Source: Desulfobulbaceae bacterium (GTDB taxonomy: Bacteria > Desulfobacterota > Desulfobulbia > Desulfobulbales > Desulfobulbaceae). From it: a stretch of 64,000 nt of DNA. The notes under the pieces were generated by a model that ran no database searches, was not told the origin of the DNA, and saw only the letters and a list, made by a program, of their open reading frames with translations. The DNA lies in the NCBI GenBank assembly GCA_023544645.1, contig JAMJFO010000004.1:1-64000 (forward strand). Reading direction: 5' to 3'. This document shows, one piece after another, positions 36,010-55,889 of the stretch (its first letter is position 1; each line of letters opens with the position of its first letter). A program made the position numbers and the translations under genes.

Positions 36010-36246
36010 TCAGCCGGTAAGAATTTCTTTCATCCGGCGGTACTCTTCTTCCGATATTTCACCATGGGCAAGTTTGCGTTTAATAATTTCCAGGGAATCA
36101 TCCGCGTCACGTTTTGAGTTATCTTTTGCCATCAGAGCCCGCACCGCCAGTACAACAATGTAGACAATTACCGCCAGGACCGCGATATTGAACAGCATCC
36201 CGACAAAGCCATAATGAAAGGGAAGACCCCAGTTACAGTTCCACAT
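36010..36246 (-). CDS. small membrane protein with SHOCT domain
   Basis: 78 aa. One long hydrophobic segment (about 14-38) is followed by a SHOCT motif at the C-terminus (IIKRKLAHGEISEEEYRRMK), a short domain found at the ends of many bacterial proteins and thought to support oligomer formation. It lies after the ZraP-like gene on the same strand, with a stable hairpin between them, and is probably read from the same sigma-54 promoter. A role in envelope or metal stress is inferred from context only. Confidence 0.8.
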   Translation of the reverse strand: MWNCNWGLPFHYGFVGMLFNIAVLAVIVYIVVLAVRALMAKDNSKRDADDSLEIIKRKLAHGEISEEEYRRMKEILTG

Positions 36247-36276
36247 ACTTTTTATCCAGTGTAAATATGAACGAAG

Positions 36277-36311
36277 CAGGCATTCCGGGATTAAAATCTC
36301 CGGAATGCCTG
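36277..36311 (-). other. intergenic hairpin between the ZraP-like and SHOCT genes
   Basis: CAGGCATTCCGG is exactly complementary to CCGGAATGCCTG around an 11-base AT-rich loop. No T run follows on the minus strand, so it may stabilise or partly stop the ZraP message rather than end it. Confidence 0.6.
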
Positions 36312-36341
36312 TTATACCTTTTACTTATTACCGTGTTAAGA

Positions 36342-36794
36342 TCACCGGCCAGGACCGGCTCCGGGGCAGCCGGGGGTCCCGCAGGAACCGTAGCCCCCCA
36401 CACCGGGATTACCGAAGGCATTAGGTGCGCCGGCGCAGCTGCCGCAACCACCTCGACCGGCAACGCGCCCGCCGCATCGGCCATACTGTTCGGTGCCGGG
36501 AGCACCTATATCACTGGCGCGGGCTATCTCTGCCAACTTTTCCTGGTTGCCTGCAATACTGGCAGTGAGCTCCCTCACTCTTTTGGCGTCGGGGTTTTCT
36601 CCGGCCATCAAGGCATTCAGTTCGGCACGATCCAAGGCAATTTCTTTGCGGATATCCGCAGTTTCGTCAAGAAATTTGGTAAAGACCGGATCATTTCCAG
36701 GGTCTGCGCTCCAGCCACGGGCATAAACATGTACCGCTACCAGGGACATGCTGACGGCCAGGACCAACGTCAGAACAACAACAATTTTTTTCAT
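36342..36794 (-). CDS. ZraP-like periplasmic metal-binding protein with Cys/Gly-rich tail
   Basis: 150 aa. A signal peptide (MKKIVVVLTLVLAVSMSLVA, cleavage after about residue 25) is followed by a helical region (PVFTKFLDETADIRKEIALD onward) like ZraP/CpxP-family heavy-metal resistance proteins. The tail of about 45 residues is rich in Gly and holds five Cys (GRCGG, GGCGSC, GSCGTPGC), instead of the His-rich ends of classic ZraP. The frame is open to 36875, but the ATG at 36794 has GGAGG upstream and starts the signal peptide. It is divergent from a ZraS/ZraR-type system and has a sigma-54 promoter, as in the enterobacterial zraP-zraSR arrangement. Confidence 0.85.
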   Translation of the reverse strand: MKKIVVVLTLVLAVSMSLVAVHVYARGWSADPGNDPVFTKFLDETADIRKEIALDRAELNALMAGENPDAKRVRELTASIAGNQEKLAEIARASDIGAPGTEQYGRCGGRVAGRGGCGSCAGAPNAFGNPGVGGYGSCGTPGCPGAGPGR

Positions 36795-36842
36795 CGGTGC
36801 AACCTCCATTAAGGTATAAGATTGTAAGTTACCCATCTTTCT

Positions 36843-36857
36843 ACAAGTAATGTGCCA
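36843..36857 (-). promoter_or_regulatory. sigma-54 promoter of the ZraP-like gene
   Basis: The minus strand reads TGGCAC-ATTAC-TTGT. GG and the -12 element are separated by exactly ten bases; the -12 has GT in place of GC. It lies about 50 bases before the start codon. Confidence 0.65.
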
Positions 36858-36938
36858 GAAAATAGCAATTATCATAATATATTGAAAATATTAGACTTGT
36901 TTTAAATTGTACATGATTTTACCATGCCCGCCTCTTGT

Positions 36939-36954
36939 CGGCACAGTTTTTGCT
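36939..36954 (+). promoter_or_regulatory. sigma-54 promoter of the two-component operon
   Basis: CGGCAC-AGTTT-TTGCT matches the -24/-12 consensus except for the first base, with the required ten bases between GG and GC. The sensor kinase starts at 37031. Between the two promoters lie TAATAT-N7-ATATTA (36875-36893) and ATTAGAC, which recurs at 36890, 36963 and 36995; these are possible activator sites, in AT-rich sequence. Confidence 0.75.
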
Positions 36955-37030
36955 GATTACAAATTAGACACAAGGCCAAACAAAATGTATAATTATTAGA
37001 CACCCTTTTGCGACAAAAACAGGTTTCCCC

Positions 37031-38842
37031 ATGATACTGAAAAAATTTACCCCCCACCGCGCGGTCATTTCATCCTGGATCGTTATCGGCATGAGCCTCA
37101 TCATGGTGGCGGCGGTCAGCGTGCTCGCTGTCTTCAACTACAACCGCCAGAAAACAGGCATGCAGCAGATGCTCAATGAGAAAGGGGCGGCCCTGATCAA
37201 ATCATTTGAAGCCGGCACCCGGACCGGCATGATGGGGAGATTCGGCGCTGAATCTCGCCTTCAGACCCTGCTGAGCGAGACCGCCTCCCAGGAGGATATT
37301 CTCTATATCGCCCTGGTTGATATCTCCGGAAGAGTCCTGGCCCACAACGATCCCGATTATATCGGCCAGCAGTTCACTTCGCCCCATACCATGAAATATC
37401 TCGCCCCGGCGGAAAAAACATCCTGGCGCACTATTGACAGAGAGGGAATGCCGGTATCATTCGAAGTCTACAGGAAGTTCCTGCCTGTTCTATCCGGTTC
37501 CCGGACACCGAAGATGCGCGAGGGAATGAGAATGAATATGCGGGGCCCCGACAACGAAACAATATGGTGTCAGCCCGGATGGATGGAAGGATTGCCGCAG
37601 GACCGAATCCTGGATCCCGAAGAACGGCCGGTCATCTTTATCGGCATGGATGCCTCCCCCTATGCGGAAGCAATGCGGGAAGATTTCCGGGCAACCCTGA
37701 TGACCTCGGCAATAATTCTTCTGCTGGGAATGGCCGGGATTGTTTCCCTTTTCTGGGCACAAAGCTATACCAGATCGAAAAAACTCCTGCGGGACAGCCG
37801 TGCCTTTGCCGCAGAGATGGTGGCCAGTCTGCCGGAAGGAATCATCGTGACCGAACCCGGGCGTACAGTCACATTTGTCAACCCCATCGCCGCGGACATG
37901 CTTGACCTCGACTCCATGGAATCCATGGGCAAGCCTACAACAGCCATCCTGCCCGCCAGCATGAATGACCTGCTGGAAGCAATCACGGCAGAGCAAAGGG
38001 TTGTTGAGAGAGAGCTTTCCTTCACCAACAGAGAGGGATCCGAACTGACGGCAGCGGTCAGCGCAACCAATATCATTTCTGAAGATGGCGACTTTGTGGG
38101 AACAATGTTCATCCTCCGAGACCTCACCCAGGTCAGGCGGCTCCAGGCCACTGTGCAGAAGCAGGAAAAGCTGGCAGCCATCGGCAACCTGGCTGCCGGT
38201 GTAGCCCATGAAGTACGCAACCCCCTCAGTTCCATCAAGGGATACGCGACCTATTTCGCCTCTCTATTCGAGCACGATAGCGAAAAGAAAAAAGCAGCCG
38301 AGGTCATGATTACCGAAGTTGAACGGTTGAACCGGGTTATATCCGAACTGCTTGAGATATCCCGTCCGTCAGACCTCAAATGCAGGGAAACAGACCTCTC
38401 CTTCCTGCTCAACTCATCAATCCGACTGGTCCGGCAGGACGCCGACGCCGGAGGCATAAGGATAACCACGTCCATCGACGAGACCATGGCGCCGCTCCTG
38501 GTTGATCCTGACCGCATCACCCAGGCACTGCTCAATCTCTATATCAACGCCATCCAGGCCATGACCGTGGGAGGAGTGCTGTCCATCAGCTCCCGGGACC
38601 AGGGCAGTGGCATAACAATCACCATCACCGACACCGGCACCGGCATGAGTGAAGACACCGGGAACAAAATCTTTGACCCCTATTTTACAACCAAAAACAC
38701 CGGCACAGGGCTGGGCCTGGCCGTGGTCAGAAAGGTTGTTGAAGCGCACAACGGCACAGTTGAATTCACCAGCCGGGAAAATCACGGAACAACATTTACC
38801 ATTTTTCTACCACGTCAACGTAAACAGGACATTGCAGAATGA
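37031..38842 (+). CDS. sensor histidine kinase, ZraS/HydH type
   Basis: The protein is 603 aa. A first membrane segment (about 14-37), a periplasmic part of about 180 residues, and a second membrane segment (about 220-243) lead to a PAS domain (about 262-375, LPEGIIVTEPGRTVTFVNP). The HisKA domain follows, with phospho-acceptor His near residue 393 (VAHEVRNPLSSIKGY), then the ATPase domain with N, G1 and G2 boxes (LLNLYINAIQAM, DTGTGMSED, GTGLGLAVV). Its stop overlaps the response-regulator start by 4 bases. By analogy with ZraS it senses periplasmic metal or envelope stress, with the ZraP-like protein as partner; the signal is not visible in the sequence. Confidence 0.92.
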   Translation: MILKKFTPHRAVISSWIVIGMSLIMVAAVSVLAVFNYNRQKTGMQQMLNEKGAALIKSFEAGTRTGMMGRFGAESRLQTLLSETASQEDILYIALVDISGRVLAHNDPDYIGQQFTSPHTMKYLAPAEKTSWRTIDREGMPVSFEVYRKFLPVLSGSRTPKMREGMRMNMRGPDNETIWCQPGWMEGLPQDRILDPEERPVIFIGMDASPYAEAMREDFRATLMTSAIILLLGMAGIVSLFWAQSYTRSKKLLRDSRAFAAEMVASLPEGIIVTEPGRTVTFVNPIAADMLDLDSMESMGKPTTAILPASMNDLLEAITAEQRVVERELSFTNREGSELTAAVSATNIISEDGDFVGTMFILRDLTQVRRLQATVQKQEKLAAIGNLAAGVAHEVRNPLSSIKGYATYFASLFEHDSEKKKAAEVMITEVERLNRVISELLEISRPSDLKCRETDLSFLLNSSIRLVRQDADAGGIRITTSIDETMAPLLVDPDRITQALLNLYINAIQAMTVGGVLSISSRDQGSGITITITDTGTGMSEDTGNKIFDPYFTTKNTGTGLGLAVVRKVVEAHNGTVEFTSRENHGTTFTIFLPRQRKQDIAE

Positions 38843-54060: not shown

Positions 54061-54834
54061 TCAGAACAGCGATATCCATATCCTGATTGCTGCTAGGGCG
54101 ATCACCCCGGCAAGAATCTGTCGCAAAATACCCACCCTTGCCCTGTTGCTGAGATGGGCCCCAACCATTGCGGCAGGAATGACTGTCAGGACGACGGGGA
54201 TGGCCAGCAGCCATTCGATCTGCCCGGTAATAGCCTTACCGGCAAAACCGGCCGCGCATGAAATCAACACAATCCCCAGATTGCTGCCGATGGCAATTCG
54301 CGTGGGGATATGAACATAAGAGGTCATCAGGGGAATCAGGATAAAGGAGCCTCCCTGTCCGACCATTCCGCCGAACAGCCCCACGGCGGCAGCCGCAACC
54401 ACTGCGCGGAACCGGCTGAAGTCCAGCAGATAGATATCCGGCCGTTCACAGTCATTTTTCACCGGCACAAACATCAATATGGCCGCGGCAAACGCCAGGC
54501 CGGCAAAAATAAAAAGCAGGACCTGGTTGGGTATCCAACGGGCTGCAGCCCCGCCGAAAAGGGAGGCAATAAATATGCTGACCCCCATGAAGAGGGAGAG
54601 CCGGTCGGAAACGAACCTGAAGCGACGGTGAGCCCATCCCCCGGCAAGGGAGGCGGCCAGCCCCTGGACAATGGTCAGACCGGCGACAATTTTCATGGAA
54701 AGAGGCTCAAAACCAAACAGGGGCGGAACATAGAGAAGAAGCGGAGCCATGATGATTCCCCCGCCGATGCCCAGCAGACCGGAAAGGGATCCGGTTATCA
54801 GCCCGAGAATGCCGATGAGCAGGTAAAGCCCCAT
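54061..54834 (-). CDS. TauE/SafE family permease, second copy
   Basis: 257 aa, about eight helices, with GSLSGLLGIGGGIIMAPLLL and GLFGGMVGQGGSFILIPLMT. The frame extends upstream into selD, but the ATG at 54834 overlaps the selD stop (TAATG) and starts right at the first helix. Substrate unknown. It is co-transcribed with selD, an uncommon neighbour; a role in selenium or sulfur oxyanion export is a guess from position only. Confidence 0.87.
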   Translation of the reverse strand: MGLYLLIGILGLITGSLSGLLGIGGGIIMAPLLLYVPPLFGFEPLSMKIVAGLTIVQGLAASLAGGWAHRRFRFVSDRLSLFMGVSIFIASLFGGAAARWIPNQVLLFIFAGLAFAAAILMFVPVKNDCERPDIYLLDFSRFRAVVAAAAVGLFGGMVGQGGSFILIPLMTSYVHIPTRIAIGSNLGIVLISCAAGFAGKAITGQIEWLLAIPVVLTVIPAAMVGAHLSNRARVGILRQILAGVIALAAIRIWISLF

Positions 54835-55889
54835 TACGCTTCCAGCGTGATACCTACCGAATCGTCCGTTATTTCCCCGATTTTTACCGCTGCCGAAACA
54901 CCTGCCGCCCAAAGCGAGGATACCAGTTCGTCCGCCTGAGACCCCGGCAGGGCAAGCAGAAGCCCGCCGGAAGTCTGCGGGTCGTAGAGCAGCTCCTCCT
55001 CGGGACTGCTGAGCGCGGCCCTGAGCTCGAAATTGTGCCTGGCAACCATTCTGCGGTTCGCCTCGTTGCTGCCCGTAGTCTCCCCTTTTTCGTACATTTC
55101 CAGGGCGCCGGGATAGAAAGGCAGTTTGCGGTAGCTGACAACAACCCTGGAATTACATCCATGGGCCATCTCCACGAGATGGCCGAGAATGCCGAAGCCG
55201 GTGACATCGGTGCAGGCATGCAGATCATGCTGCAGCGCCTTTTCCATGGTCAGTCCGTTAAGAAAAGCCAGCTGCGGCAGCACTTCCCGCTCCAGCTCCC
55301 GGAACGAAAATTTACCTGATCGAACGGCGTTAAACAGCACTCCTGAACCCAGGGGCTTGGTAAGGACCAGAGCATCCCCTGGTCTTGCCCCGGCATTGGT
55401 AATGACCCGGTCCGGATGAACTATGCCGTTGACGCAGAGACCGTATTTCGGTTCCTCGTCATCAACTGTATGGCCGCCGACCATGCAGGCCCCGGCTTCA
55501 ACCACCTTGTCATGTCCACCGCGTAGGATATCGTGCAGCATCCCCATGTCAAGGAGCTTGGAAGGAAACATGACGACATTGAGAGCGGTCAGAGGTTTTC
55601 CCCCCATGGAATAAATATCCGATATGGAATTGGCGGCGGATATCTGCCCGAACCAGTAAGGGTCGTCCACCGGGGGCGTGATGAAATCAACGGTATTGAT
55701 CATGGCGATCTCGTCGTTGAGCCGATAGACCGCGGCATCATCCGAGGTTTCGATCCCGACCAGCAGGTTCGAATCAGTGGGAGGCGCAAGACCTTTCAGT
55801 GCGTCCGACAAGTCCGTCGGACCTATTTTCGCTGCTCAGCCGCAGGTGCGGGCAAGGCCGGTCAACGTCTTCTTTTTGAAAAATCCCAT
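54834..55889 (-). CDS. selD: selenide, water dikinase SelD, itself a selenoprotein
   Basis: Makes selenophosphate from selenide and ATP, for Sec-tRNA and selenouridine. Ordinary ORF calling would start at a TTG at 55811 and lose the catalytic N-terminus. Reading on from the ATG at 55889 gives KKKTLTGLARTCG-U-AAKIGP, with an in-frame TGA at 55838-55836 exactly where SelD proteins have their active-site Cys or Sec, three residues before the conserved Lys (U-A-A-K). A hairpin follows the TGA. The rest is typical: LVGIETSDDAAVYRLND, DIYSMGGKPLTALNV, CMVGGHTVDDEE and TDVTGFGILGHL. The total is 351 aa, the normal length. SelA, SelB and tRNA-Sec must lie elsewhere. Confidence 0.93.
55803..55822 (-). 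promoter_or_regulatory. bacterial SECIS hairpin in selD
   Basis: On the minus strand GTCCGAC, loop GGACTT, then GTCGGAC form a perfect 7-bp stem that begins 13 bases after the TGA codon; the loop begins 20 bases after it. This fits the spacing known for bacterial SECIS elements bound by SelB. Confidence 0.75.

Follow-up and report, generated by a model that had tools for sequence, protein, structure and literature searches.

A predicted selenocysteine-containing SelD with a conserved in-frame TGA and a synonymously constrained hairpin in a Desulfobulbaceae genome

SelD containing selenocysteine (Sec), with the profile TIGR00476 and the motif UxxK, is listed as a selenoprotein family (PMC13188914, PMC1794560). 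SelD ranks among the most widespread selenoproteins, and several Deltaproteobacteria are listed, including Desulfotalea psychrophila (PMC1794560). Among the solved structures, the best relative of the protein described here is SelD of Aquifex aeolicus (PDB 2yye, 2zod and 2zau; 224 bits for 2yye), while the Escherichia coli enzyme (PDB 3u0o) scores 211 bits. The window, that is, the whole stretch of 64,000 nucleotides analyzed here, belongs to a draft genome of 153 contigs and carries a minus-strand gene that matches this family closely when a single TGA is read through. The product scores 348.1 bits against TIGR00476 (cut-off 125; profile positions 2-310 of 311), contains the Pfam domains AIRS and AIRS_C, and has read-through homologs in the same order that are 81% identical. 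The features of the locus are as follows.

54834..55889, minus strand: selD coding sequence with the TGA read as selenocysteine (351 aa, stop TAA)
55836..55838, minus strand: in-frame TGA, Sec18, aligned with the catalytic Cys/Sec of SelD
55839..55889, minus strand: 17 codons 5' of the TGA, encoding the conserved protein segment FKKKTLTGLARTCG
55842..55844, minus strand: TGC codon for a clade-specific invariant Cys two residues before Sec (C-G-U motif)
55803..55822, minus strand: predicted bacterial SECIS hairpin within the coding sequence, stem GTCCGAC/GTCGGAC, loop GGACTT
54061..54834, minus strand: TauE/SafE-family permease gene

The initial annotation had placed the start of selD at the ATG at 55889-55887, with one TGA at 55838-55836 in an otherwise open frame, and these coordinates proved exact. 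The read-through product is MGFFKKKTLTGLARTCG-U-AAKIGP..., with the N-terminus MGFFKKKTLTGLARTCGUAAKIGP.... U18, K21 and the conserved motifs DDA, GGHT/DD and DVTGFG line up with their counterparts in the chains of A. aeolicus and E. coli, and the TGA site corresponds to Cys in solved SelD homologs and in a second SelD of the same genome. Alignment with the solved relatives thus bears out the proposal that Sec occupies the catalytic Cys/Sec position, three residues before the conserved Lys. A mechanical ORF finder, the only gene caller applied, instead starts selD at TTG 55811 and returns 325 aa, losing 26 codons. This is exactly what would be expected of an ordinary truncated gene in which the TGA is a real stop and the product lacks the active-site loop, and the fact that no other stop is as common in the window as TGA also favors it. 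However, such a product would lack both the active-site Sec/Cys and the Lys. TTG 55811 lies inside the hairpin, at the junction of the loop and the 3' arm, and no ribosome-binding-like motif was found before it, whereas the ATG is preceded by GGGGA. Furthermore, across the clade the 17 codons 5' of the TGA keep their amino acids while their synonymous sites are mostly free, which indicates that they are translated. We therefore regard a truncated gene as very improbable.

Conservation of the TGA was assessed among homologs in 80 named contigs and in relatives of the genome to which the window belongs; every member of the same clade (clade A) that covers the site has it. All 94 distinct close homologs have TGA at the Sec site and none has Cys. 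A class-wide survey of 155 genomes listed, by our count, 56 clade A copies covering the site, and these likewise all carry TGA, with no Cys. A single base change would be enough to turn TGC or TGT into TGA, so that an ordinary Cys-SelD could in principle be disguised by a sequencing error. The initial annotation had named this as a possible refutation; because TGA is kept in every clade A homolog covering the site, across independent assemblies, the codon is not an error of this kind, and we consider that explanation vanishingly improbable.

The hairpin lies where it had been proposed: the TGA is followed by 13 bases (55835-55823), GTCCGAC (55822-55816), GGACTT (55815-55810) and GTCGGAC (55809-55803), which places the loop 20 nt from the TGA. 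The minimum-energy fold adds one pair inside the loop, so that the loop may comprise 4 nt rather than 6. According to published bSECIS limits (PMC13188914), the loop should have 3-9 nt with a G in the first two positions, the stem 4-16 bp, the distance from the TGA should be 16-37 nt, and the MFE should be at most -7.5 kcal/mol. The selD hairpin falls within these limits, as the initial annotation had suggested might be checked, with a stem of 7-8 bp, a loop of 4-6 nt starting with G, a distance of 20-21 nt and an MFE of -12.8 kcal/mol. The limits are also satisfied by all 100 clade A genes tested and by those genes of the other SelD group that encode Sec, although their hairpins pair in a different register. 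Taken as a single sequence, the fold is mildly unusual (z = -1.69). When codons were synonymously recoded with the protein fixed, 19% of the recodings folded equally well and 16% met the bSECIS model, while the perfect 7-pair stem at this site was retained in 0.8%. Owing to its weak significance, the single-sequence fold was not relied on as evidence for a SECIS element. Rfam, searched with its gathering thresholds and with permissive ones, yielded nothing relevant for the hairpin; we know of no curated bacterial SECIS family in that database.

Comparison across the 94 distinct genes is more informative. The hairpin is formed by precisely the codons +5 to +11 counted from the TGA, which have observed synonymous entropies of 0.00, 0.00, 0.40, 0.43, 0.42, 0.00 and 0.24 bits, against expected values of 1.95, 1.90, 1.79, 1.35, 2.22, 2.46 and 0.96 bits. 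These codons are nearly frozen, as exemplified by GGT/AGT and by CCG and TCG, each present in 94 of 94 genes. At codons +1, +2, +4, +12 and +13, synonymous variation is close to the codon-usage expectation, and at codons -5, -3, -1 and +3 the constraint is somewhat above it. The presence of TGA in all clade members covering the site, together with this synonymous freezing of the hairpin nucleotides, removes the doubt about the hairpin. A constraint of this kind is sensible only with Sec insertion, which argues further against a sequencing error. These clean codon statistics indicate that the selD coding sequence also serves as a SECIS element.

The genome as a whole appears equipped to decode Sec. 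The expectation that the organism would possess the decoding machinery was borne out by the recovery of selA (642 bits), of selB along the whole model (378 bits) and of a tRNA-Sec with anticodon TCA (74.2 bits; cut-off 47). In the same genome, a full-length gene for the alpha subunit of formate dehydrogenase (FdhA; 1444 bits) contains a single in-frame TGA, and two other FdhA-like frames have a TGA at a UHxP motif and a hairpin with a GGTCT loop 18 nt after it. The loops of the clade selD genes (GGATCT, GGCTCT, GGTTCT and GGACTT) resemble these GGTCT loops. Genome-wide reassignment of TGA to a residue other than Sec, such as Trp or Gly, would also explain why the frame is open once the TGA is read as a residue. 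Nevertheless, TGA terminates 20 of the 31 plausible genes in the window and is thus an ordinary stop there, the site aligns with Cys in SelD homologs, and selA, selB and tRNA-Sec are present; reassignment is extremely improbable. Given the clade-wide TGA, the codon pattern, the decoding machinery and the use of TGA as an ordinary stop, we reject all three rival readings: that TGA is reassigned, that the gene is truncated, and that the codon is a sequencing error.

A protein with a SelB-like GTPase domain (L144:800-1852; 212 bits, below the selB cut-off) lies near a Cys-SelD, YedF and double-cubane-type genes and is possibly a second or split SelB. On the selB contig, open frames consisting of repeats such as 'APHAGAWIET' and 'FQSTPPRGGR' (L155:16149-17735) were judged by eye to be a CRISPR array translated falsely into protein, as is usual for such arrays.

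Four things are directly established: the reading frame, conservation of the TGA, constraint on the hairpin, and a genome that contains the decoding machinery. On these grounds, a genuine Sec-containing SelD at 54834..55889 is very well supported by the sequence data, and the initial reading of the locus stands. The gene almost certainly encodes a SelD, the enzyme that uses ATP to convert selenide to selenophosphate, and this SelD would itself be a selenoprotein through UGA/SECIS decoding at residue 18. From what is known of the family, we infer actual Sec insertion and SelD enzyme activity along the following lines. SelB with GTP and Sec-tRNA-Sec would bind the mRNA hairpin just 3' of UGA 55838, so that selenocysteine would be placed at residue 18, three residues before the catalytic Lys. 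Sec18 would then be the selenium-handling residue of a flexible N-terminal loop and would handle selenide. The resulting selenophosphate would go to SelA for Sec synthesis, and the genome is predicted to decode Sec in other proteins too, as in formate dehydrogenase. Two other consumers of selenophosphate, selenouridine synthase (YbbB) and the Se-cofactor protein YqeB, were searched for and did not turn up in the genome, and Sec synthesis is therefore the main known use of selenophosphate here.

In a protein tree, a quick one with long outgroup branches, the window SelD falls into clade A, which separates with support 98 from the remaining SelD proteins of the same order and is about 45-50% identical to them. 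The C-G-U motif, with Cys two residues before Sec, is invariant in this clade (94 of 94 distinct genes). Directly after the selD stop comes the ATG of the TauE/SafE-family permease gene (PF01925, 134 bits). Among the 96 clade loci that extend far enough downstream, 60 have a TauE/SafE permease as the next gene on the same strand, usually no more than about a dozen bases away. This recurrent proximity makes the permease at 54061..54834 a candidate transporter of selenium or sulfur oxyanions with a link to Sec-SelD. In a literature search of partial coverage, no report on TauE with SelD, or on two selD genes, was found. The reason for this frequent pairing of Sec-SelD with a permease that would be a candidate selenium transporter is a larger question. 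Desulfopila aestuarii DSM 18488 has three clade A selD genes (L060, L067 and L101), all with TGA, and clade A selD genes occur in contigs labeled Nitrospirota (Magnetocorallium) and Acidobacteria (L077 and L127), reflecting either lateral transfer or mis-binned contigs.

The second SelD of the genome (G000:C76:36098-37093) has Cys in the catalytic loop (GCAAK) and scores 369 bits against TIGR00476; it belongs to the same family as the window SelD and is 46% identical to it, with Cys in place of Sec. Its locus (L141:8078-9121; G000:C76, about 36077-37120) lies near nif genes and genes for a double-cubane-cluster reductase and its activase, and in the Cys-SelD loci of relatives YedF is a neighbor. 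The linkage of YedF, CoA-dehydratase-type proteins and the activase with SelD was already described by Lin et al. 2015 (PMC5322559). In the tree, the Cys-SelD forms group together with two Sec-encoding genes as sisters, a topology that fits replacement of Sec by Cys. The idea that Cys-SelD always co-occurs with Sec-SelD was discarded: in the class survey, two genomes (G105 and G118) each have one listed SelD, of the Cys type and with no internal stop. Another larger question is why a number of genomes of the class retain a pair of SelD proteins, of which one always has Sec and the other sometimes has Cys. A division of labor between Sec-SelD and Cys-SelD is plausible. A specific version of it for this lineage is offered tentatively and is, in our view, rather unlikely: the always-Sec clade, having a C-x-U redox pair as well as its own TauE/SafE permease to move an oxyanion of selenium or a related one of sulfur, would supply Sec synthesis, and the Sec-independent Cys-SelD would serve a separate selenium/redox route (YedF and the double-cubane reductase cluster) and could start up Sec synthesis.

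The window SelD resembles known Sec-SelD proteins in family score, Sec at the catalytic site, the UxxK motif, a downstream bSECIS hairpin and its occurrence in Deltaproteobacteria, but differs in belonging to a distinct clade with an invariant Cys two residues before Sec. With A. aeolicus SelD it shares the xAAK(I/V)GP motif, although the crystallized chain of that hyperthermophile has Cys, and SSG precedes its catalytic residue where the window protein has TCG. The E. coli enzyme agrees in family and catalytic loop, its GCGCK aligning with GUAAK, but has Cys for Sec, and it carries its extra Cys two residues C-terminal to the catalytic one, where the window SelD has it two residues N-terminal. 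Sec-containing SelD is an already well-known selenoprotein family, to which the window gene adds a member.
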